DNA of 64,000 nucleotides, taken from Cognaticolwellia beringensis (GTDB lineage: Bacteria > Pseudomonadota > Gammaproteobacteria > Enterobacterales > Alteromonadaceae). The stretch is from NCBI RefSeq assembly GCF_002076895.1, contig NZ_CP020465.1, positions 558,001-622,000 of the forward strand. Reading direction: 5' to 3'. Numbering within the stretch: position 1 is the first letter of the stretch; each line of letters starts with the position of its first letter. Both the position numbers and the translations under genes were made by a program. The notes beneath the pieces were generated by a model that worked only from the letters and a program-made list of their open reading frames with translations, had not been told where the DNA came from and made no database searches. Below are positions 19,499-62,758 of this stretch, one piece after another.

Positions 19499-19712
19499 CT
19501 CTGTAATCGTGAATCGAAATAGTTTCTAAGAGAAACTCAGATAATTGCAGAATTTTTAAAATGAGTGGGGTATATCCGCCCATAGACTTGCCCAGTTAAC
19601 TTTTCAACGTTAACGTAATGAATGTGCCTTAAGTCTTCCTGGTGGTTTCCTCGTATATGTACGTAGGAGCTTTGGCGTATAGCCAGTTTCTACCATGAGA
19701 AGACAAAATTAT
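19499..19712 (+). other. Long 5' leader of deaD with hairpins
   Basis: About 210 nt of untranslated leader. It contains a perfect AGTTTCT-AAG-AGAAACT hairpin (19521-19537), a GTTAAC pair separated by 8 bases near 19598-19617, and a TCCTCGTA/TACGTAGGA stem near 19647-19668. Long structured leaders are typical of cold-induced csdA/deaD mRNAs; the function here is inferred. Confidence 0.45.
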
Positions 19713-21515
19713 ATGACTGATCTTAACAATGCCTCTGTAGGCTTTGACGCCCTTGGTTTGCCTGAAAACTTAGTATCTGCTGTAAAAGCACTAGGTTTTG
19801 AATCATCTACTCCAATCCAAGCGCAAACAATTCCACCTTTACTTCAAGGTAAAGACGTTCTTGGTGAAGCACAAACCGGTACAGGTAAAACTGCTGCTTT
19901 TGGTTTGCCTGCACTAGCAAAAATAGACGTAACTATACGTAAACCACAATTAATGGTGCTAGCGCCAACACGTGAGTTAGCCATTCAAGTAGCAGAAGCG
20001 ATTGAAACTTTTGCCAAAGACATGAAAGGTTTGAAAGTTGCGACTTTATACGGTGGTCAATCTTACCAACCACAATTTCAACAACTAGAACGTGGTGCAC
20101 AAGTTGTTGTGGGTACGCCGGGTCGTTTAATGGATCACTTACGTCGTAAGAGCCTTAAATTAGATAACTTATCATTTTGTGTGCTTGATGAAGCCGATGA
20201 AATGTTAAACATGGGCTTTTTAGAAGACATTGAGTGGATCCTTGAGCATCTACCTAAAGAAACACAAATGGCGTTGTTCTCTGCAACCATGCCACCGCAA
20301 ATTCGCAAAGTAGCGAATCGCTTTTTGAAAAATCCTGAGCACATTAAAGTTGCTGCAGTGAAAAAAGAAAAAGCCAATATTACACAATACGCTTGGAAAG
20401 TTAGCGGCATTAACAAAATGACCGCTTTAGAGCGTATTGCTGAAACTGTTGAATATGATGCAATGCTAATCTTCGTTCGTACTCGTAACGATACTATTGA
20501 TGTTGCTGAAAAATTAGAACGTGCAGGCTATGCCTCTGTTGCTTTAAACGGTGATATGAACCAAGCACAGCGTGAACGTACTGTTGACCAACTTAAATCA
20601 GGTGTTTCATCAATTCTTGTAGCGACTGATGTTGTTGCTCGTGGTCTTGATATTCCGCGTCTTTCATTAGTTATTAACTATGATTTACCGGGTGACAACG
20701 AAGCTTACGTTCACCGTATAGGCCGTACAGGCCGTGCTGGTCGTAGTGGTACAGCGATTTCATTTGTTCGTCCACGTGAAATGTATTCTTTACGTCATTA
20801 TGAGCGTTTAACCTCTGGTACGATTGCAATGTACGACTTACCAAATATTCAAGAAATTGGTAAAGCCCGTATTGAGCGTACTTGTAATGAGTTAGCGTCT
20901 ATTGTTGCTGATAAAGAATTAACTGCAATGCGCGAAATTATTGAAACTATGGCAAGTGAGTCAGAACTTTCAATGACAGATTTAGCGGCAGCGTTACTTT
21001 ATCAAAAACAGTTAAAGCAACCATTACAACCGAAAGAAGATCCTAAGCCTCGTCGTGATGCACGTGAAAGAAATGATCGTGATAGCAGTGGTCGCAATGA
21101 TGCACGTGGTGGTCGTAACGATAGTCGTGGCGGTCGTAACGAAGCTCGCGGTGGTCGTGCGGATAGTCGCAACGAAGGTCGTGCAGAGCGCGCTCCTCGT
21201 AAAGCGAAAGTGGCACGTTCAGATGTTGATTGGCAGACTTACCGCTTAGAAGTGGGTAAAGAGCATGGTGCACGTCCTGGTGATATCGTTGGCGCAATTG
21301 CTAATGAAATATCATTAGACAGCAGCTACATCGGTGCTATCAACTTGCATGACAAACATAGCTTTGTACAGTTACCTAAAGGTATGCCTGAAAAGTCTTT
21401 TACACAATTAAAGCGTGTTCAAGTTCGTCGTCAAGCACTTGCTATTACGGTATCAGATGTACAGCCAGCTGCTGAGCGTCCAGCACGCGCACGTAAAGAG
21501 CAACGCACTAACTAA
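19713..21515 (+). CDS. deaD: DEAD-box ATP-dependent RNA helicase DeaD/CsdA
   Basis: A cytosolic RNA helicase of about 600 residues, involved in ribosome assembly and mRNA turnover at low temperature. Motifs in order: AQTGTGKT, PTRELA, TPGR, DEAD, SAT, and HRIGRTGRAGR. A basic Asp/Arg/Gly-rich linker with several GGR(N/A) units follows at about residues 440-500, then a DbpA-type RNA-binding domain (DWQTYRLEVG to VQVRRQALAI). An in-frame ATG at 19695 has no ribosome-binding site, while ATG 19713 follows GAGAAGA. The gene has its own promoter, leader and terminator. Confidence 0.93.
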   Translation: MTDLNNASVGFDALGLPENLVSAVKALGFESSTPIQAQTIPPLLQGKDVLGEAQTGTGKTAAFGLPALAKIDVTIRKPQLMVLAPTRELAIQVAEAIETFAKDMKGLKVATLYGGQSYQPQFQQLERGAQVVVGTPGRLMDHLRRKSLKLDNLSFCVLDEADEMLNMGFLEDIEWILEHLPKETQMALFSATMPPQIRKVANRFLKNPEHIKVAAVKKEKANITQYAWKVSGINKMTALERIAETVEYDAMLIFVRTRNDTIDVAEKLERAGYASVALNGDMNQAQRERTVDQLKSGVSSILVATDVVARGLDIPRLSLVINYDLPGDNEAYVHRIGRTGRAGRSGTAISFVRPREMYSLRHYERLTSGTIAMYDLPNIQEIGKARIERTCNELASIVADKELTAMREIIETMASESELSMTDLAAALLYQKQLKQPLQPKEDPKPRRDARERNDRDSSGRNDARGGRNDSRGGRNEARGGRADSRNEGRAERAPRKAKVARSDVDWQTYRLEVGKEHGARPGDIVGAIANEISLDSSYIGAINLHDKHSFVQLPKGMPEKSFTQLKRVQVRRQALAITVSDVQPAAERPARARKEQRTN

Positions 21516-44979: not shown

Positions 44980-46161
44980 TTAGTGTTTAGCTATAAGGCT
45001 TACATCGTCCATTGAAGACAAAGTAAAGGCTATATCGGTTGTATCAATGGTGACGGTCGTCGGATTTATTGGCATGCCAGGTCCAACGCGAGCGGGGCCG
45101 TTGACAGCGATAATGTCGCCTTTATTTAAACCTGAAGTAATCGCACGTAATTTTCCGTAACGTTCACCAACTTCGATAAGCTTATATTCCAAAACGTTGT
45201 TTTCACCGACCGTAAGTACAAAGCGATTTTTCAAGTCTGTACCTATGGCACGTTCAGGAATAATAATTTGCTTCGTTATCGCGTTAGCAGCGAGCTTAAT
45301 ACGAGCAAATGATCCAGCACGTAATTGGTCGTTTACTTCACTATGTTGCCCCTCAAAAATAGCACGAACTCTTAAAGTACCTGTTGACGCATTAATACGG
45401 TTATCAATGAAGTTGATGTAACCTTCATGGGTAAAGGCTTGTTGTCCTATTTTTTGCATAACAACTTGCTGTTTGCTTGCCGCAGTAACATCAGCAAATG
45501 AATTATTCCAAGTACGCTCATCAATATCAAAATAGGCATACATTTCATGATTAGAAACGATTGACGTTAGTATGCTTTGACCCGCAAGTACGTTATTACC
45601 ACGGGTGATATTTGCTCTTGAAATAACACCATTTATAGGTGAACGAATAGCCGTAAATTCTAAATCAAGTTGTGCTGAGGTTAGCTGAGCTTGTAATGCC
45701 GCTAATTGTGCTTCACGCTGATGTAAAGTTGAAGTGCGAGCTTGTGCTTGTTCTGTTGATATAGCATTGCGTTCTGTTAAGCGTATGGCACGTTTGGCTT
45801 CACTTTTTGCTTGGTCTAATGCTGCATTTGCACTAAGAATTTGAGCTTCTAGGCTCGCAACTACAGCTGCAAAAGGGCGGTTATCAAGTTGAAACAATAA
45901 ATCGCCTTGTTTTACGTTATCACCTTCTTTAAAAGCAATACGGTCAATAACACCAGACACACGTGGCATTAACGCTACTTCTTCAGGAGACTCTAGACGG
46001 CTAGTATAAACATGCCAGTTTTGTACGGGTTTAACTAATACCTCGGCAACATCTATAGGTTGTAATGGCTGCGATGCTGTCTTTTTCTCAGGCTCTTCAG
46101 TACAGCCTGTTACAGCTAAACTAATGGTGATGATAGCGGCAATAAAAATGTGTTTGTTCAT
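44980..46161 (-). CDS. RND efflux periplasmic adaptor lipoprotein (MexE-like)
   Basis: Adaptor of about 393 residues of the HlyD/AcrA family that bridges pump and outer-membrane channel. I start it at the ATG that gives a lipoprotein signal peptide ending VTGC. A longer in-frame start at 46212 adds 17 residues that spoil the signal. Lipoyl-like halves (EGDNVKQGDLLFQLD and FTAIRSPINGVISR) flank a coiled-coil hairpin. It is the first gene of the four-gene operon, facing the LysR gene. Confidence 0.92.
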   Translation of the reverse strand: MNKHIFIAAIITISLAVTGCTEEPEKKTASQPLQPIDVAEVLVKPVQNWHVYTSRLESPEEVALMPRVSGVIDRIAFKEGDNVKQGDLLFQLDNRPFAAVVASLEAQILSANAALDQAKSEAKRAIRLTERNAISTEQAQARTSTLHQREAQLAALQAQLTSAQLDLEFTAIRSPINGVISRANITRGNNVLAGQSILTSIVSNHEMYAYFDIDERTWNNSFADVTAASKQQVVMQKIGQQAFTHEGYINFIDNRINASTGTLRVRAIFEGQHSEVNDQLRAGSFARIKLAANAITKQIIIPERAIGTDLKNRFVLTVGENNVLEYKLIEVGERYGKLRAITSGLNKGDIIAVNGPARVGPGMPINPTTVTIDTTDIAFTLSSMDDVSLIAKH

Positions 46162-46257
46162 AAGAGTTCTCGTCTGGCTCGAAATAATATACTTAAGTTT
46201 CATGGCGTGCATGATACGGAACCAATGTGTGGATAAAAAGCATAGATTTTTAATTTC

Positions 46258-54052: not shown

Positions 54053-57000
54053 ATGGATGTTTATTTTAAAAAAGTACTAAGAGTTTTTCGTTTTGTTCTA
54101 GTTTTTCAACTGTTGATTACATCATTCTATGTAAAATCAATTGAAACTTGTGAGTCGGTTTTTGTGGCGAGTAGCGGTGTGGCTACAATTAGTATCTCAG
54201 ATGCAGAGTTACTCAACTTTATTACTGGTGGGCTGCTAGGATTAAATGTAAAGCTTTCAGTTGCCGATACCGAATATAGTAGTTTGCTAAGTGCTGGAAT
54301 AGATTTAGAAAGTTATCTTGATACATTAGTGGTTGATCTGAGTGTCGCTAATAAATCAGATGCTGTTGCTGCCAACATAACCCTCACGCAAGCAATTGAT
54401 GCTGCGATTACTGTTCTGCAAAGCCAAGGTGGTAACACGGTTGCCATTGCCACACTGGAAGATATTAAACTTGTGGTGCCTGCCAATACTTTTTCATTAC
54501 TCGATGTTATTAATTTAAATGTTGAAGATAGCGCGGTATTGTCGACAACAGTCAATGTTCTCGATTTTCATATGCTGATTTTACAGGCATTTAATCATCA
54601 AAATGCCATTAGTGCAGAAGATATTTCTTTAAATTTATCCGCACTTGGGCTTGATGGCACTTTTGGTGGCTTGTCTGTTTCTCTTAGCGATATCTCTGCC
54701 GCTATCATCGCTGTTGAAGGGCCTAAGTTAGTCAGCGGATCTGTTGGTACAGCATTTACTACTTCATCTATCAGACTGAAGATATTCGCTGATCTTGTAG
54801 ACGTAGCTGCAGCTCCTTTATCTTTAGGCTTAGCAAATGTTGCCGTAAATCTTACTGATTTTGAATTGTATGCCGATGTTTCAAGAGCCAATGGCACAGT
54901 TGAACAGCTGTCATACTTAACGCAAACTTTACGCTTAAATGTAACCCCAGGAGTTGCAAGTTTATACTTAGGTCAAATTAGTGCTGTCGATTTTAATGAT
55001 AGGAGCTTAACCAGTGATATTGATTATGCAACCGAAGTCGCACCAGTAGTTATAGGTAGTATTAATATTCACTTAGGTCTTGCTAATGAAACTATAGCAT
55101 TAGAAGCACGTGCTAATGCGAATGTTAATGGGGCTCTAGAAAGCCTTGATTTTATAGCTCCTTTTCCTGAAAGCAAAACTACTACGGCGGGTGTTGGAGT
55201 TATTAATTCACTGCTGTCTTCTCTACTAAGCAATACAGTGCTTTCAACGACTCCAGATCCTACATTGGTGGATACGACATTGCTTTTAGCTTTGATTCGT
55301 AGCCTTGTTGTTGATGATATTTTATCACCCGTTATTAGTGATATTGTGACTAATTTTGCTGACCCAACTGCTGAAGGGTTAGGTATCAGTATCGGTAATG
55401 CTACACAGAAAGTCTTTGCGCTAAATGGTGATAGTTGTATCCCAACAGTTAATAGCGCAAATACATCTGATACCACTCCTTTGCTCAGTGGTTTGGCTTA
55501 TCGTTCGACAGTAGATTCAGAGCAGTTAAATATTGTATTGAACAACATTACCTATCAGGAAGGTATCGATTTTGTCGTCACTGAAAATCAATGGTCGTTA
55601 ACTGTACCTCCAGAAGACTCTATGCCAGAAGGTGTTTACAATGTTGACGCAACAGTAACTAATGGTGTTGATAGTGTTTCTGATCAAAGCACGTTTGAAT
55701 TAACAATCGACTTAAGCCAACCTACCGTACAAATTCAAAATGTACCGACTAATAGCAACAGTCCTTTTACGGTAACTTTTGCCTACAGTGAACCAGTGAC
55801 TGATTTTATTCTTGCTGATATCTCAGTGGGTAACGGCACTGCTAGCAATTTTACGACAGTTGATAGCAGCAACTATACCGCCTTGATCACACCGGCGGCT
55901 GATGGCGCAGTGACTTTAGATGTCAACGCCAATGTCGCACAAGATACAGCTGGAAATCTCAATACGGCGGCCACACAAGTGAGCAGTACATTTACTGCCG
56001 GTCGTCCATCAGTACAAATTCAAAATGTGCCTGCCAATTCGAAAATTGTTTTTACCGCAACCTTTGCGTTTAGTAAGCCTGTGACTGGCTTTATTCTGAC
56101 TGATATATTGGTAGGTAACGGCATTGCTAGTAACTTTAGTGATGTTGACGGTAGTAACTACACGGCGTTGATTACACCAACTGTTGATGGCGCAGTGACT
56201 TTAGATGTTAATGCTAATGTTGCACAAGATAGCGGCGGTAATCTTAATACCGCAGCAGTTCAGGTTTCTAGCCAATATGATGCGACTCGCCCATCAGTCG
56301 CTATTCAAAATGTACCTGCTAATAGCAGCGGTGCTTTTACCGCAACCATTGCATTCAGTGAGCCGGTATCTGACTTTATTATTACTGATATATTGGTCGG
56401 TAACGGTATTGCCAGTAACTTTATCGATGTCGATAGTAGTAACTACACGGCGTTGATCACACCGACTGCTGATGGCGCAGTAACTGTAGACGTTAGTGCC
56501 AATGTCGCACAAGATACGGCTGGAAATTTCAATACGGTCGCCACACAAGTGAGCAGTACCTTTAATAGCACGCGTCCGTCAGTACAAATTCAAAATGTAC
56601 CAGCTAATAGTAACAGTGCATTTACCGCAACTTTTGCGTTCAGTAAGCCAGTGATCAATTTTATTCCCACTGATATTACGCTCTCCAATGCGACGGTAAG
56701 TACCTTCATTATTGTCAGTACCAGTAGCTATACCGCCTTGATCACACCGACGACCAATGGCGCCGTGACTATAGACATCAATGAGAATGTCGCCCAAGAT
56801 CTTTTTGGTAATCTTAATACGGCGGCCACGCAAGTGACCAGTCAATATGATGCCAGCCGTCCATCGGTTGCTATTCAAAATGTCCCTGAAAACACCAAAG
56901 CGGCGTTTATCGCCACCTTTGCCTTTGATAAAATTGTCACCGGTTTTATCATCGGTGATATCAGTGTCAGTAACGGTACGGCCAGTAACTTTATTTCTCT

Positions 57001-60000
57001 CGGTGGCAGTCTCTATACCGCCTTGATCACCCCTACGGCGAACGGTGTGGTGACCTTAAATGTTAACGAAAATGTTGCCCAAGATCTCAGTGGTAATCTG
57101 AATACCGCGGCCGCGCAAGTGAGCAGTAATTATGACACCCTGCGCCCATCGGTTGCGATTCAGAATGTTCCTGAAAACACCAACGGGGCATTCACCGCCA
57201 CCATAGTGTTCAGTGAGCCAGTGAGCAATTTTATTCTCAATGATATTAGTGTGTCTAACGCGACGGTCAGTGACTTTATACCGGTCAGTGGCAGTAATTA
57301 TACCGCGTTGATCACCCCTATAGCCGAGGGTGTGGTGACGTTGAATATTAACGAGAATGTGGCAGAAGATCTCAGTATTAATTTAAATACGGCGGCCACG
57401 CAAGTCAGCAGTACCTTTAATGGTACGCGTCCGTCAGTACAAATTCAAAATGTCCCGGCGAATAGCAGCGCACCATTCACCGCGACCTTTGCCTTTAGTG
57501 AGCCAGTGATTGACTTTATTCCCACTGATATTACGGTTACTAATGCGACGGTCAGTACCTTCATTATTGTCAGTACCAGTAGCTATTCGGCCTTGATCAC
57601 CCCAACAGCCAATGGCGCGGTGACGTTAGATGTGAATGCCAATGTCGCACAAGATATCGCGGGTAACCTTAATACGGCGGCCACGCGAGTGACCAGTCAG
57701 TATGATGCCACCCGTCCATCGGTTGCTATTCAAAATGTGCCTGAAAACACCAAAGCGGCGTTTATTGCCACCTTTGCCTTTGATAAAATTGTCACCGGTT
57801 TTATCGGCAGTGATATCAGTATCAGTAACGGTAGGGCCAGTGATTTTCTTTCCCTCGGTGGCAGTCTCTATACCGCCTTGATCACGCCAACGGCGAACGG
57901 TGTGGTGACCTTAAATGTTAACGAAAATGTTGCCCAAGATCTCAGTGGCAACCTGAATACCGCGGCCGCGCAAGTGAGTACTAATTATGACACCCTGCGC
58001 CCATCGGTTGCGATTCAGAATGTTCCTGAAAACACCAACGGGGCATTCACCGCCACCATAGTGTTCAGTGAGCCAGTGAGCAATTTTATTCTCAATGATA
58101 TTAGTGTGTCTAACGCGACGGTCAGTGACTTTATACCGGTCAGTGGCAGTAATTATACCGCGTTGATCACCCCTATAGCCGAGGGTGTGGTGACGTTGAA
58201 TATTAACGAGAATGTGGCAGAAGATCTCAGTATTAATTTAAATACGGCGGCCACGCAAGTCAGCAGTACCTTTAATGGTACGCGTCCGTCAGTACAAATT
58301 CAAAATGTCCCGGCGAATAGCAGCGCACCATTCACCGCTACCTTTGCGTTTAGTGAGCCGGTGATTGACTTTATTCCTACTGATATTACAGTCACTAATG
58401 CGACGGTCAGTACCTTCATTATTGTCAGTACCAGTAGTTATACCGCTTTGATCACCCCAACGGCCAATGGCGCGGTGACGTTGGATGTTAATGCCAATGT
58501 TGCCCAAGATATCGCGGGTAATCTTAATACGGCGGCCACGCAAGTGACCAGTCAATATGATGCCAGCCGTCCATCGGTTGCTATTCAAAATGTCCCTGAA
58601 AACACCAAAGCGGCGTTTATTGCCACCTTTGCCTTTGATAAAATTGTCACCGACTTCATCATCGGTGATATCAGTGTCAGTAACGGTACGGCCAGTAACT
58701 TTATTTCTCTCGGTGGCAGTCTCTATACTGCCTTGATCACCCCTACGGCGAATGGTGTAGTGACCATAGACGTCAATGCTAATGTCGCACAAGATATCAG
58801 TGGCAATCTTAATACGGCTGCCACGCAAGTGAGCAGTAATTATGACACCCTGCGCCCATCGGTTGCGATTCAGAATGTTCCTGAAAACACCAACGGGGCA
58901 TTCACCGCCACCATAGTGTTCAGTGAGCCGGTGAGCAATTTTATTCTCAATGATATTAGCGTGTCTAACGCCACGGTCAGTGATTTTATACCGGTTAGTG
59001 GCAGTAATTATACCGCGTTGATCACTCCGATTGTTGACGGTGTGGTGACGTTGAATATTAACGAGAATGTGGCTGAAGATCTCAGTATTAACCTCAATAC
59101 GGCGGCCACGCAAGTGAGCAGTACCTTTAATGGTAAGCGTCCGTCAGTACAAATTCAAAATGTCCCGGCGAATAGCAGCGCACCATTCACCGCTACCTTT
59201 ACGTTTAGTGAGCCGGTGATTGACTTTATTCCCACTGATATTACAGTCACTAATGCGACGGTCAGTACCTTCATTATTGTCAGTACCAGTAGTTATACCG
59301 CCTTGATCACGCCAACGGCCAATGGCGCGGTGACGTTGGGTGTTAATGCCAATGTTGCCCAAGATATTGCGGGTAATCTCAATACGGCCGCCACGCAAGT
59401 GACCAGTCAATATGATGCCAGCCGTCCATCGGTACAAATTCAAAATGTTCCGGCTAATACCAATATTGAATTCATCGCGATTTTTACCTTTAGTGAATCA
59501 GTTATTGATTTTACTATGAGTGATATCAGCGTAACAAATGCAATCATCAGTACCTTTATCGATATTAATGGCAGTAGCTATACAGCATTAATTTCACCGA
59601 TAGCCGATGGCGAAATCACCTTGAATGTCAATGCTAATGTGGCACAAAACAACAATGGCAATCTCAACACGATGGCGGCTCAAGTGACTAGCCTATATGA
59701 CACTGAACCTCCTGAGTTAACTATCTTTAAAACCGTGACAGTTAATATTGTTAATCAGTCAAATTACAAATTTGAAGGAACATGTAGTGATGATGGCAAC
59801 TCGGTCGTTGTAAAAATTAATAACTTAAATTCAAATTCTGTAAATTGTGACGCAGGCCAGTGGGCCTTAAATAAGAATATGAGAGCTGTTACTGATGGCT
59901 TATCAGTAGTGACTATTAATGCGAACCAAACTGATAATGCTGGAAATATAGGGAGTGCCTCTCCAGTTGCAATTGATAAAGATACAGAAAAGCCAATATT

Positions 60001-62758
60001 CACTATTGATAGAGTTATTTATAGTCAAGAAAATGCGCTGATATTTAGTGGTACATCTGACACAGAAGATGGTACTGAAGTAACAATTATAGAATCAACG
60101 GACAATACCTTATGTGTCGCCCCAGTTAATGAAAATTCATGGGTCTGTGAAAGTTCAGTTATTTTACCTGAAGGAACTTACGATCTTAGAGCAGAAGCTG
60201 AAGACAAAGCAGAAAACTTGAGCATCATTTATTTTTCTAAAACTGTAAGTCTTGACGAAGACAATGATGGTATTTCAAACCTAGATGAAGGCTATGGTGA
60301 CACAGACAATGACGGCATTCCGGACGCTCAAGATACAGACTCTGATAGTGATGGTGTTCTAGATAGCGTAGAAGGGATTGGCGATGATGACGGCGACAAC
60401 ATACCCAACTTCCAGGACTCAAGTAGTGATGAAGATATGGATGGCATCCCTGATGTAATTGAAGGTAATACCGATGTTGATAATGATGGCATTATCAACG
60501 CCCTAGACCCAGACAGTGATAATGACGGCATTGTTGATGGCTTTGAAGCAAGACTGTCTGGCAATGATAGTGACCAAGATGGTATTGATGACATATTTGA
60601 TGCCGACATAGGTGGAGATGATCCTGACGGTGATGGCATTACCTATCAAGCGATAGATACGGATAATGACGGTATTGCAGATTACTTGGATAAAGATTCA
60701 GATGGTGATGGTATTCCTGATGCAATTGAAGCTTTTATAGGCTTCACAGACATAGATAATGACGGTATTTGGGATAGATATGACCAAAGTGTAACCGGTG
60801 ATGCAGATAGTGATAATGATGGAATTATCGATTCCTATGACGCTGATCAAACCAATGGTTTAGATGCTGATAATGACGGTATCAATGATTTGTTAATCTT
60901 ACTTAATGATCACAACCAGAACTTTATACCAGACCACCTTGATATAGATAGTGACAGCGATGGTATTCGAGATGGCATTGAAGCTCAAGTATCAGGTTTC
61001 GATCATGATAATGATGGCATTGACGATACGTTTGACGCTGATCTTTCAAACGCGATAGATGCAAACAGTGACGGAATTATCGATAACTTTACTTTCATAG
61101 ATACAGACGCTGATGGCGTTATAGATATGAATGACCTTGATAGCGACAACGATGGTGACACTGATACTTTAGAAGCGAATGTTCAAGATGATAATAGAGA
61201 CGGCATTATTGATGTTGGTGCACCTTTAATTACACAAGTTGTTGATACTGATGAAGATAACATTCCTGACCATTTAGACTCAGACAAAAACAATGATGGT
61301 ACTTATGATATTCAAGATAATGCCCATGGCGCCTTTGACAACAATAATGATGGTCAAGTTGATATAACAGCAGATATCGATGGCGATGGGATTGATGACA
61401 GTGTTGATGGCGATACCCAAGTACTGGGTCACGGAAGTAATGCTGACAGCGATAACGACTCAGTGCTTGATGTAATCGATAAAGATGATGATAACGATGG
61501 TATTGCTGATATTACTGAGCGTTCATTTGTTGATGATGGCAATGAAACCGCGGGTATTAATAAAGTTTTAAGTACTAATACGGCTAGTGTGCAAACGACT
61601 AAAGTTCTACGCGCGCTAGATACGGACAATGATGGCATTATCGATGAAAAAGATCGCGATAGTGATAACGACGGTATTTCTGATTTAATTGAAAATGGCA
61701 GACCGAATTTATCAGGATTCGACCACGATATGGATGGTATCGACGATATGTTTGATGCCGATTTTACCGGTGGAGAAGACAATGACCTTGATGGCGTTGA
61801 CGATATTTATAACGTTAAGGATACAGACGGAGATTCAGTACCTGATTACTTAGATCTTGATAGCGACAATGACAAAATTAGTGACAATGTAGAACAACTG
61901 ACTGTTGCACCGTCAGGGATTGATGCTAATAGAAATGGTATTGATGATGCATTTGATCCCGCTTTTAATTCAAATCAAGATGATAATTTGGATGGCATTG
62001 ACGACACACTCGTTATTTTAACTAACCCAGACGGCGATGACATATTAAACTTCCAGGACGTTGATAGCGACGGCGATAGTATCAGAGATATTGATGAACA
62101 AGCTGTCGACTTTGACGGTGATGGAACACCTAACTATCTTGATCTTGATAGCGACAATGATGCTATTAGTGACGCTATAGAAGGTCTTAATGATTTCGAT
62201 ACGGATGGCGCGTCTAACTTTTTAGACCTTGATAGTGATAACGATGGTATTAGTGATGCTACTGAAGGAGTAAATGACTTCGACTCTGATGGTGCATCTA
62301 ACTTTTTAGACCTCGACAGTGACAATGATGGTATTAGTGACGCTAGAGAGGGGGAGAATGATTTTGACAGTGATGGAGCGTCCAACTACTTAGACCTTGA
62401 TAGCGATAACGATGGAATAAGTGATGCCATTGAAGGGGAAACAGACTTTGATGGTGATGGCGCGTCTAACTTTTTAGACCTTGATAGTGATGGTGACGGC
62501 ATCAGTGATGCGATAGAGGGACAGAATGACGCTGACGGTGACGGTTCGTCTAACTACTTAGACCTTGATAGTGATGGTGATGGTGTCTCTGATATTGACG
62601 AAAATGGCGATTTTGATGGTGATGGTGTGAGTGATGCTATTCAAGATAAGAGACATGTTCAAAGTTCATTAAAAGGCTCAGGAAATGTTGGTACGATATT
62701 AATTTTTATGCTGATATTATTTAATTTAATGCGCTATAGAGCTAGTAATAACACCTGA
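54053..62758 (+). CDS. Giant exported Ig-like repeat protein with Asp-rich calcium-binding array
   Basis: 2901 residues. It has an N-terminal signal segment (LVFQLLITSFYVKS), then about 450 residues resembling the C-terminal region of TadG-type proteins (SVADTEYSSLLSAGIDLESYLDTL; tentative) and one Ig-like domain. Residues about 556-1885 are fourteen 95-residue repeats of exact length (QIQNVPANS, FAFSEPV, YTALITPT, NVAQD, GNLNTAA). After two looser Ig-like segments comes a thrombospondin-type-3-like array (DxDxDGxxD) to about residue 2865, and a tail GSGNVG plus a hydrophobic stretch and Arg, resembling GlyGly-CTERM. Likely a surface or secreted, calcium-stiffened adhesin. No enzyme domain is seen. 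Confidence 0.85.
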   Translation: MDVYFKKVLRVFRFVLVFQLLITSFYVKSIETCESVFVASSGVATISISDAELLNFITGGLLGLNVKLSVADTEYSSLLSAGIDLESYLDTLVVDLSVANKSDAVAANITLTQAIDAAITVLQSQGGNTVAIATLEDIKLVVPANTFSLLDVINLNVEDSAVLSTTVNVLDFHMLILQAFNHQNAISAEDISLNLSALGLDGTFGGLSVSLSDISAAIIAVEGPKLVSGSVGTAFTTSSIRLKIFADLVDVAAAPLSLGLANVAVNLTDFELYADVSRANGTVEQLSYLTQTLRLNVTPGVASLYLGQISAVDFNDRSLTSDIDYATEVAPVVIGSINIHLGLANETIALEARANANVNGALESLDFIAPFPESKTTTAGVGVINSLLSSLLSNTVLSTTPDPTLVDTTLLLALIRSLVVDDILSPVISDIVTNFADPTAEGLGISIGNATQKVFALNGDSCIPTVNSANTSDTTPLLSGLAYRSTVDSEQLNIVLNNITYQEGIDFVVTENQWSLTVPPEDSMPEGVYNVDATVTNGVDSVSDQSTFELTIDLSQPTVQIQNVPTNSNSPFTVTFAYSEPVTDFILADISVGNGTASNFTTVDSSNYTALITPAADGAVTLDVNANVAQDTAGNLNTAATQVSSTFTAGRPSVQIQNVPANSKIVFTATFAFSKPVTGFILTDILVGNGIASNFSDVDGSNYTALITPTVDGAVTLDVNANVAQDSGGNLNTAAVQVSSQYDATRPSVAIQNVPANSSGAFTATIAFSEPVSDFIITDILVGNGIASNFIDVDSSNYTALITPTADGAVTVDVSANVAQDTAGNFNTVATQVSSTFNSTRPSVQIQNVPANSNSAFTATFAFSKPVINFIPTDITLSNATVSTFIIVSTSSYTALITPTTNGAVTIDINENVAQDLFGNLNTAATQVTSQYDASRPSVAIQNVPENTKAAFIATFAFDKIVTGFIIGDISVSNGTASNFISLGGSLYTALITPTANGVVTLNVNENVAQDLSGNLNTAAAQVSSNYDTLRPSVAIQNVPENTNGAFTATIVFSEPVSNFILNDISVSNATVSDFIPVSGSNYTALITPIAEGVVTLNINENVAEDLSINLNTAATQVSSTFNGTRPSVQIQNVPANSSAPFTATFAFSEPVIDFIPTDITVTNATVSTFIIVSTSSYSALITPTANGAVTLDVNANVAQDIAGNLNTAATRVTSQYDATRPSVAIQNVPENTKAAFIATFAFDKIVTGFIGSDISISNGRASDFLSLGGSLYTALITPTANGVVTLNVNENVAQDLSGNLNTAAAQVSTNYDTLRPSVAIQNVPENTNGAFTATIVFSEPVSNFILNDISVSNATVSDFIPVSGSNYTALITPIAEGVVTLNINENVAEDLSINLNTAATQVSSTFNGTRPSVQIQNVPANSSAPFTATFAFSEPVIDFIPTDITVTNATVSTFIIVSTSSYTALITPTANGAVTLDVNANVAQDIAGNLNTAATQVTSQYDASRPSVAIQNVPENTKAAFIATFAFDKIVTDFIIGDISVSNGTASNFISLGGSLYTALITPTANGVVTIDVNANVAQDISGNLNTAATQVSSNYDTLRPSVAIQNVPENTNGAFTATIVFSEPVSNFILNDISVSNATVSDFIPVSGSNYTALITPIVDGVVTLNINENVAEDLSINLNTAATQVSSTFNGKRPSVQIQNVPANSSAPFTATFTFSEPVIDFIPTDITVTNATVSTFIIVSTSSYTALITPTANGAVTLGVNANVAQDIAGNLNTAATQVTSQYDASRPSVQIQNVPANTNIEFIAIFTFSESVIDFTMSDISVTNAIISTFIDINGSSYTALISPIADGEITLNVNANVAQNNNGNLNTMAAQVTSLYDTEPPELTIFKTVTVNIVNQSNYKFEGTCSDDGNSVVVKINNLNSNSVNCDAGQWALNKNMRAVTDGLSVVTINANQTDNAGNIGSASPVAIDKDTEKPIFTIDRVIYSQENALIFSGTSDTEDGTEVTIIESTDNTLCVAPVNENSWVCESSVILPEGTYDLRAEAEDKAENLSIIYFSKTVSLDEDNDGISNLDEGYGDTDNDGIPDAQDTDSDSDGVLDSVEGIGDDDGDNIPNFQDSSSDEDMDGIPDVIEGNTDVDNDGIINALDPDSDNDGIVDGFEARLSGNDSDQDGIDDIFDADIGGDDPDGDGITYQAIDTDNDGIADYLDKDSDGDGIPDAIEAFIGFTDIDNDGIWDRYDQSVTGDADSDNDGIIDSYDADQTNGLDADNDGINDLLILLNDHNQNFIPDHLDIDSDSDGIRDGIEAQVSGFDHDNDGIDDTFDADLSNAIDANSDGIIDNFTFIDTDADGVIDMNDLDSDNDGDTDTLEANVQDDNRDGIIDVGAPLITQVVDTDEDNIPDHLDSDKNNDGTYDIQDNAHGAFDNNNDGQVDITADIDGDGIDDSVDGDTQVLGHGSNADSDNDSVLDVIDKDDDNDGIADITERSFVDDGNETAGINKVLSTNTASVQTTKVLRALDTDNDGIIDEKDRDSDNDGISDLIENGRPNLSGFDHDMDGIDDMFDADFTGGEDNDLDGVDDIYNVKDTDGDSVPDYLDLDSDNDKISDNVEQLTVAPSGIDANRNGIDDAFDPAFNSNQDDNLDGIDDTLVILTNPDGDDILNFQDVDSDGDSIRDIDEQAVDFDGDGTPNYLDLDSDNDAISDAIEGLNDFDTDGASNFLDLDSDNDGISDATEGVNDFDSDGASNFLDLDSDNDGISDAREGENDFDSDGASNYLDLDSDNDGISDAIEGETDFDGDGASNFLDLDSDGDGISDAIEGQNDADGDGSSNYLDLDSDGDGVSDIDENGDFDGDGVSDAIQDKRHVQSSLKGSGNVGTILIFMLILFNLMRYRASNNT
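55718..59707 (+). repeat. Fourteen tandem 285-bp repeats inside the giant gene
   Basis: Unit starts fall at 55718, 56003, 56288 and every 285 bp to 59423, with no insertion or deletion. From 56858 the units form a three-unit (855-bp) higher-order pattern A-B-C repeated three times (56858, 57713, 58568). The B units at 57143 and 57998 appear identical at the DNA level. Confidence 0.95.
60250..62640 (+). repeat. Asp/Asn/Gly-rich calcium-binding-type coding repeats
   Basis: Irregular DxDxDGxxD units throughout, ending in six regular 84-bp (28-residue) tandem units starting at 62138, 62222, 62306, 62390, 62474 and 62558. Each has the form LDLDSDNDGISDA followed by a DFDxDGASN segment. Confidence 0.85.

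Follow-up and report, generated by a model that had tools for sequence, protein, structure and literature searches.

A repeat protein of Cognaticolwellia beringensis with a TadG-like head and a variable number of fixed-length Big_12 units

Periscope Proteins such as Sgo_0707, SasG, Rib, Esp and CdrA are known from Gram-positive and some Gram-negative bacteria (PMC8201768, PMC9704523). In the sections of those papers used here, the screen for such proteins took repeats of over 50 residues with at least 80% identity, the adjacent SHIRT domains of the model periscope Sgo_0707 are 82-100% identical, and the authors describe a 'misfolding problem', similar neighbours being prone to misfold. Of the classes compared here, Periscope Proteins come closest to the protein described below, which appears to share with them, as sketched in those sections, an N-terminal functional domain, a stalk of tandem folded domains and a C-terminal anchor, together with a repeat number that differs among closely related strains and repeats alike enough in DNA to recombine. 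Unlike them, it is a Gram-negative protein with a probable rhombosortase anchor, a TadG-derived head and a 798-aa TSP3-like segment.

Three other described systems are close in part. MpAFP, the ice-binding adhesin of Marinomonas primoryensis, is presented in the relevant part of PMC4083281 as an RTX protein, a class exported by type I secretion, with ~120 identical 104-residue calcium-dependent Ig repeats and calcium-bound inter-repeat regions. The present protein resembles it in being very long, in its constant-length Ig-like units, in its Gram-negative, cold-water host and in the extender role the units would play, whereas its export signals, head and tail differ and a sequence search of the PDB finds no match for either its units or its head. 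Fibrillar adhesins, as outlined in PMC8286594, combine a known adhesive domain with stalk domains; here the array is made of Big_12 units and the head matches no Pfam or NCBIfam family above cut-off. In Vibrio cholerae, rhombosortase cleaves the C-terminal segment off the GlyGly-CTERM protein VesB and a glycerophosphoethanolamine-containing group is added to the newly formed end; VesB is then brought to the surface by the type II secretion system (T2SS) and partly released, according to the passages of PMC6219818 on this enzyme. The present protein shares the C-terminal Gly/Ser motif, hydrophobic stretch and basic end of such substrates, though those named in the relevant parts of PMC3237569 and PMC6219818 are proteases and nucleases, not repeat stalks. 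Searches by title, with few subscription journals covered, returned no paper on higher-order repeats in adhesins, on such a Colwellia adhesin, on TadG domains with Ig arrays or on a rhombosortase-anchored repeat adhesin.

The stretch of DNA analysed here, hereafter the window, comprises 64,000 nucleotides of the single 4,661,274-base contig of the Cognaticolwellia beringensis genome, which is rated 100% complete. It contains a gene at 54053..62758 on the plus strand, encoding 2901 residues without an internal stop. A protein search returned 18 proteins: P0001 is the window's own entry, and P0002-P0011 are ten relatives over the whole head, one marked partial at source and one with an early end. 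The other seven (P0012-P0018) were left out of the family, having 17-24% BLASTP query cover and other architectures. A predicted Sec signal peptide (aa 1-30; 54053..54142), recognised by eye in the window sequence and its relatives, has a basic N-region, a hydrophobic core and ...VKS or VKA before the mature start. The head and the array meet at a Big_13-like domain (aa 471-553; 55463..55711), for which the best PF19077 stretch is 469-553 and the whole-protein score 25.3, below the cut-off of 27. This domain, the two like it after the array, the sorting-signal-like C-terminal segment and the three-unit higher-order pattern within the array are all additions to the earlier note, which recognised no described family with the full layout; indeed, no single Pfam or NCBIfam model matches the whole layout.

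The fourteen 95-aa Big_12 units occupy aa 557-1886 (55721..59710). The motif 'P[ST]V[QA]IQNVP' starts at aa 557, 652 and so on to 1792 with all 13 spacings equal to 95 aa, a regularity far beyond chance. Tandem Repeats Finder reports a 285-bp period with 0% indels, and Pfam Big_12 (PF19078) matches 14 stretches (E 6.8e-170), confirming the count and exact length claimed earlier. The constancy extends to the relatives: across 14 array sequences, a count that takes the C. polaris array twice (Cpol and P0008), 219 of 221 spacings are exactly 95, and both exceptions occur in P0002, where a spacing of 94 and one of 96 cancel out. A model of units 5-7 (mean pLDDT 91.7) consists mostly of beta domains, and its best structural matches are FdeC, invasin and SiiE, the three top-ranking PDB chains giving query-normalised TM-scores of 0.33-0.40. 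Together with the Big_12 matches, this supports the Ig-like assignment, at an identity of only 13-17% between the window units and the Ig stalks of FdeC, invasin/intimin and SiiE. FdeC and invasin are inverse autotransporters, while SiiE is type I-secreted. The same model, with a pTM of 0.59, leaves interdomain placement uncertain, and with it the rigidity suggested earlier.

What is new is that unit number varies, from 9 to 26 per array, against a nearly invariant unit length, head and tail. In deposited assemblies, several of them draft or metagenome contigs in which repeats can collapse, the window copy has 14 units, G009 has 23, G008 has 26 and C. polaris (G014, P0008) has 17; among the remaining relatives there are 26 in P0002 and P0005, 17 in P0003, 13 in P0007 and P0011, 11 in P0006 and P0010, 9 in P0009 and at least 12 in the partial P0004. 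Tails are 1015-1049 aa in the copies that run to the end. The clearest series is the C. polaris type: the 430 aa that precede the array do not differ between P0009, P0010, P0011 and P0008, yet these copies carry 9, 11, 13 and 17 units, which is length variation of the kind sought in Periscope Proteins. Tail identity among P0009, P0010 and P0011 is 99.4-100%. When units are sorted into types at 97.5% identity, the four arrays, taken in the same order, are seen to differ between types 4 and 8, where they run '7', '5 6 7', '7 6 7 6 7' and '7 6 7 6 7 6 7 6 7'; a small number of units elsewhere are of another type too. Similarly, G009, P0003 and P0005 are 97.9-99.1% identical over the same 430 aa and have 23, 17 and 26 units. 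The constant length stressed in the earlier note thus holds for the unit but not for the array, where the count differs widely, in steps of whole units or blocks. The pattern points to a Periscope-like stalk of variable rather than fixed length.

Could these differences be assembly artefacts that mask true arrays of one length? P0006-P0011 and the C. polaris copy come from draft or metagenome contigs, and short-read assemblies collapse repeats. The window genome is a single contig, however, and two more single-contig genomes hold 23- and 26-unit arrays, albeit in different species, making a collapsed assembly unlikely. Moreover, it is whole in-frame modules that differ, and the order of unit types differs as well, for example '4 5 6 7 8' against '4 7 6 7 6 7 8'. 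We consider an artefactual origin very unlikely.

Within the window array, an 855-bp block of three units occurs three times over units 5-13: as units 5-7 (56861..57715), units 8-10 (57716..58570) and units 11-13 (58571..59425). Nucleotide identity is 92.7-95.8%, the first copy being 95.8% identical to the second and 92.7% to the third, and the third 93.0% to the second; one shared run is of 357 identical bases. The corresponding 285-aa blocks are 93.7-96.5% identical, and units 6 and 9 are 100% identical in amino acids and, rounded, in nucleotides. Between blocks dN is 0.017-0.032 and dS 0.13-0.27, a dN/dS of ~0.1, so the block sequence is also constrained. Each of units 5-13 has a sibling in the same array to which it is 93-100% identical, whereas its identity to the units of G008, G009 and C. 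polaris does not exceed 75%; for units 1-3 and 14 even the closest sibling is no more than 76% identical. The same holds for C. polaris units 5-14 (96-100% to a sibling, no more than 74% to units of other genomes) and for G008 units 6-23 (88-99% and no more than 73%). In G009, siblings of units 15-23 do not exceed 80% identity, so homogenisation does not extend over the whole interior there. Greater identity to siblings than to homologues, and differences by in-frame modules, are the outcome expected from unequal, in-register recombination, which would be the agent. The continuing homogenisation proposed in the earlier note is therefore supported by near-identical siblings, block copies and differing counts behind identical heads.

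The higher-order pattern differs between arrays. Mean identity in the window is 66.3 for neighbours and 83.1 for units three apart; in G008 it is 60.9 for neighbours and 83.2 two apart, and in C. polaris 59.8 and 80.3. No such periodicity is found in G009 (77.4 for neighbours, 79.4 two apart). None of the 13 adjacent pairs in the window, and none of the 54 in the window (period 3), G008 and C. polaris (period 2) combined, reaches 80%, although more distant units in these three arrays are up to 99-100% identical. By comparison, 12 of 22 adjacent pairs in G009 reach 80%, and P0002 has one identical neighbour pair. Set beside Sgo_0707, with its adjacent identities of 82-100%, three of the four arrays here thus average 60-66% between adjacent units, and in those three it is units two or three apart that average 80-83%, the closest reaching 99-100%. 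The repeat identity of at least 80% used in the Periscope screen is accordingly reached by the 285-aa blocks and by no adjacent window units. In a permutation test of neighbour identity on 12 arrays, many of them related, p(low) was 0/5000 for G008, 0.05 for C. polaris, 0.22 for the window, 0.33-0.63 for P0006, P0007, P0010 and P0011, and 0.92 for P0009, and G009, P0002, P0003 and P0005 went strongly in the opposite direction. Given these mixed outcomes, we do not claim selection. Amplification of blocks of two or three diverged units, which would make an array length-variable without creating near-identical neighbours, is a reading of these alignments that we regard as doubtful: the G009 lineage and the identical neighbours of P0002 are counter-examples, so the pattern might be due to chance, or block amplification might be just one route of two. 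If true, it would resolve a conflict in Periscope Proteins, in that recombination needs identical DNA while folding favours different neighbours. The block-wise arrays offer a clean test of whether identical neighbour domains misfold and are selected against.

The head (aa 31-470; 54143..55462) matches no Pfam or NCBIfam family above cut-off, and its only two cysteines, C33 and C462, lie at its two ends. The earlier note had called it TadG-like, and a first comparison with one TadG sequence was weak (BLASTP E 2e-5, hhalign probability 6). TadG-like ORFs were gathered by means of Tad_C (PF09977), present in 1 of 143 genomes and then in 46 of 398; a crude script extracted 23 ORFs from 31 Tad_C loci, some probably in the wrong frame. 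Against head aa 31-470, one of these scored 34.1 bits, four scored 16.7-20.2, and the remaining 18 stayed at or below 8.1 bits, the top score among 30 shuffles; against the complete 556-aa head the maximum was 36.7 bits. The best-scoring ORF has 1824 relatives, and among the 120 listed the functional names are mostly of TadG-related pilus assembly or membrane proteins. A final profile of 122 TadG-like sequences (117 of these relatives and five of the earlier ORFs) scores 61.8 bits against the head, compared with 2.6 for the best of 200 shuffles, -9.8 for the reversed head and nothing positive for three control pieces from P0002, and hhalign of the head against the TadG-like sequences gives a probability of 99 (E 9e-18). 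These scores show the head to be a distant relative of the C-terminal region of TadG. The homologous region covers head aa 37-340 and, by alignment, probably continues to ~460.

A protein with such a head might be a component of a Tad (Flp) pilus, that is, a TadG paralogue with a long extension, and the homology to the C-terminal part of TadG-related proteins is in its favour. The TadG-related pilus proteins of Pseudomonas and others carry an N-terminal Tad membrane segment and Tad_C, however, whereas the window protein matches neither Tad (PF13400) nor Tad_C (PF09977), and its head follows its own signal peptide and is placed on a putative stalk. PF09977, the sole Tad family searched for in the window genome, has no match there, and no tad-like genes are recognisable by eye among the neighbours. 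We therefore regard a pilus component as highly improbable and take the head to be a TadG-derived domain that lacks the membrane segment and Tad_C. Among 394 genomes of the order, 24 match a profile of head and TadG sequences; apart from the window ORF (given there as 2914 aa), the frames listed are of 165-775 aa and mostly matched in the N-terminal Tad part. A search of 7996 candidates of restricted length gave no stand-alone relative of the head at E <= 0.01. An AlphaFold2 model of the head from 25 aligned sequences has a mean pLDDT of 39.4, too low to support a binding site.

Two Big_13-like domains (aa 1887-2067; 59711..60253; PF19077 45.5 bits, cut-off 27, two stretches) follow the array and carry four cysteines, C1911, C1932, C2021 and C2032. 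The positions of the cysteines would fit periplasmic disulphides formed before T2SS export. Next comes an Asp-rich segment of 798 aa (aa 2068-2865; 60254..62647) with 28.8% Asp, 26 strict DxDxDGxxD motifs and 47 of the looser form [DN]x[DN]x[DN]G. TSP_3 (PF02412) scores 21.6 bits over 13 stretches on the tail alone and 16.4 on the whole protein (cut-off 25), and PF18884 scores 13.6 bits over 9 stretches of the tail (cut-off 25). The segment is TSP3-like yet lies below the Pfam cut-off; the Asp-rich part of what had been called a calcium-type array stands, while the sub-threshold TSP_3 scores do not bear out the claim of calcium dependence. In the Big_12 units, E24, D33, D75 and D92, conserved among 138 distinct units, are candidate calcium positions.

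An Asp-rich tail could alternatively act as the calcium-dependent secretion region of a type I-secreted giant adhesin of the RTX/LapA or MpAFP kind, and the giant size and Ig-like array do recall MpAFP as portrayed in PMC4083281. RTX/LapA-like adhesins have C-terminal RTX repeats and LapG control; the window protein has no RTX (hemolysin-type) Pfam match and its genome no match to the LapG-family protease (PF06035). In addition, the protein has an N-terminal signal peptide, by eye, and a hydrophobic C-terminus with a basic end, its units lack a sequence match in the PDB, and the ORFs next to the gene include no type I transporter that can be recognised by eye, although an efflux-type adaptor protein, also by eye, is encoded ~8 kb upstream (44980-46212). 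Type I export is accordingly a very improbable route.

The C-terminus itself (aa 2873-2901; 62669..62755) resembles a divergent GlyGly-CTERM sorting signal, with a Gly/Ser motif, a hydrophobic stretch and a basic end. LKGSG is kept in every copy whose C-terminus is seen, and so is the Gly/Ser-hydrophobic-basic end. The GlyGly-CTERM model TIGR03501 (cut-off 15.5) gives 15.5 bits for the C-terminus of the P0002/G009 type and 13.1 for G008, with no match for the C-termini of the window and P0011 (C. polaris type). Five places in the window genome lie above the cut-off and the window gene is not among them; on account of its sub-cut-off C-terminus, we do not file the window protein as a GlyGly-CTERM protein. 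The genome encodes one rhombosortase above cut-off (TIGR03902, 167.1 bits, cut-off 84) and GspD (TIGR02517, 546.6 bits, cut-off 351.35), the latter being the sole gsp gene searched for. We nevertheless think that the C-terminus works like a GlyGly-CTERM signal in divergent form, and the protein is probably anchored by a divergent GlyGly-CTERM/rhombosortase route. If the segment were instead cleaved without lipid attachment, the protein would be freely released as a matrix component or cross-linker rather than an anchored stalk. VesB is partly released, according to PMC6219818, and the window signal is divergent; against this, the Gly/Ser-hydrophobic-basic end is retained in every copy that reaches its C-terminus. 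Release is, on balance, unlikely. The genome's best GlyGly-CTERM match, 22.2 bits, belongs to another locus, G000:C1:1946859-1952759 (L004, L015), which also has one Big_12 domain; a 2250-aa open frame is given at both L004 and L015, so this is probably one large protein.

A pilus-protein-like head on equal-length modules of varying number would probably make a length-adjustable cell-surface arm. We therefore propose, as a reasonably probable reading, that this Gram-negative protein is a surface stalk of the Periscope kind, monomeric and variable in length. The Sec signal peptide would direct it to the periplasm, where folding and disulphide formation would take place. Rhombosortase would then remove the divergent GlyGly-CTERM-like C-terminus and attach lipid, and the T2SS would export the folded protein. 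The TSP3-like segment, possibly calcium-bound, would lie next to the cell with the Big_12 array as a stalk, perhaps rod-shaped and rigid, and the TadG-derived domain at the N-terminal tip would bind a partner or surface. Whole modules would be gained or lost in register as multi-unit blocks of near-identical sequence recombine, an exchange by homologous recombination that would keep units at 95 aa while altering reach. Against the stalk reading stand the window C-terminus and TSP3 scores, both below their models' cut-offs, and the low pTM and TM-scores. If it is true, a class known mainly from host-associated bacteria, to judge from the Periscope papers as excerpted here, would gain an environmental Gram-negative example, with a head related to a pilus protein and a probable rhombosortase in place of a sortase anchor. 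The near-identical copies with 9, 11, 13 and 17 units form a natural series in which stalk length can be set against attachment.

The gene belongs to a real, well-formed family that, in the genomes searched, is confined to one genus. The head is present in 4 of 60 genomes, all of the same genus (4 of 17 congeners, 0 of 43 other genomes), and the two of P0002-P0011 with an organism name are both Colwellia. The earlier note had suggested looking for the domain order across Colwelliaceae, and the head was recovered there in congeners alone among the 60 genomes, with Colwellia as the only name among relatives that carry one. A head profile matched only the window genome among 147 genomes of the family, a draw that lists five other congeners, evidently without the three other carriers. 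In all four carriers the gene lies between the same two small core proteins, and 12 of 13 non-carriers show the site without the gene; G007, whose contig ends 307 bases after a peptidase-like gene, is outside the site count. The site is nearly empty in two non-carriers (202 and 245 bp) and holds 0.9-8.5 kb in ten. G013, G006, G015 and G016 gave no match to the 83-aa marker on the right, and the gap was taken there up to the following marker. Nine of the ten filled sites contain ATG-started ORFs of at least 120 aa, by eye GGDEF-type, hydrolase-like, amylase-like and others, and the tenth, G001, has shorter or other open frames. With the same flanks in carriers and an empty or otherwise filled site in non-carriers, the gene is accessory, inserted at a site whose content varies across the genus. 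Two of the four carriers have interrupted copies: that of G008, a single-contig genome, has a frameshift inside the head (L032:15746-16222), and in that of C. polaris an in-frame stop separates the Big_13 domains from the Asp-rich segment (L031:13190-13300), beyond which the same frame remains readable. The protein may therefore be dispensable.

Several minor observations concern the gene and its surroundings. Promoter scans around the gene gave chance-level results only, and a terminator scan found one terminator-like site before the gene and none after. Antisense open frames of 80-274 aa lie beneath the head and array (54313-59443, minus strand); those within the array probably follow from the repeat codon pattern and are not evidence of genes. 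The Pfam match to PEX18_PEX21_C (31.3 bits, above its whole-protein cut-off) was dismissed because no single stretch passes, as were those to FitA, Spore_YpjB and ACP, in which no stretch passes alone. P0010 and P0011 bear the source name 'thioredoxin-like negative regulator of GroEL', which the family matches of the window copy do not support. Elsewhere in the window, a 21-bp tandem repeat at 21088-21170 encodes the RGG-type (GGRNDSR-like) tail of an apparent DEAD-box RNA helicase (19695-21515; recognised as a helicase by eye).
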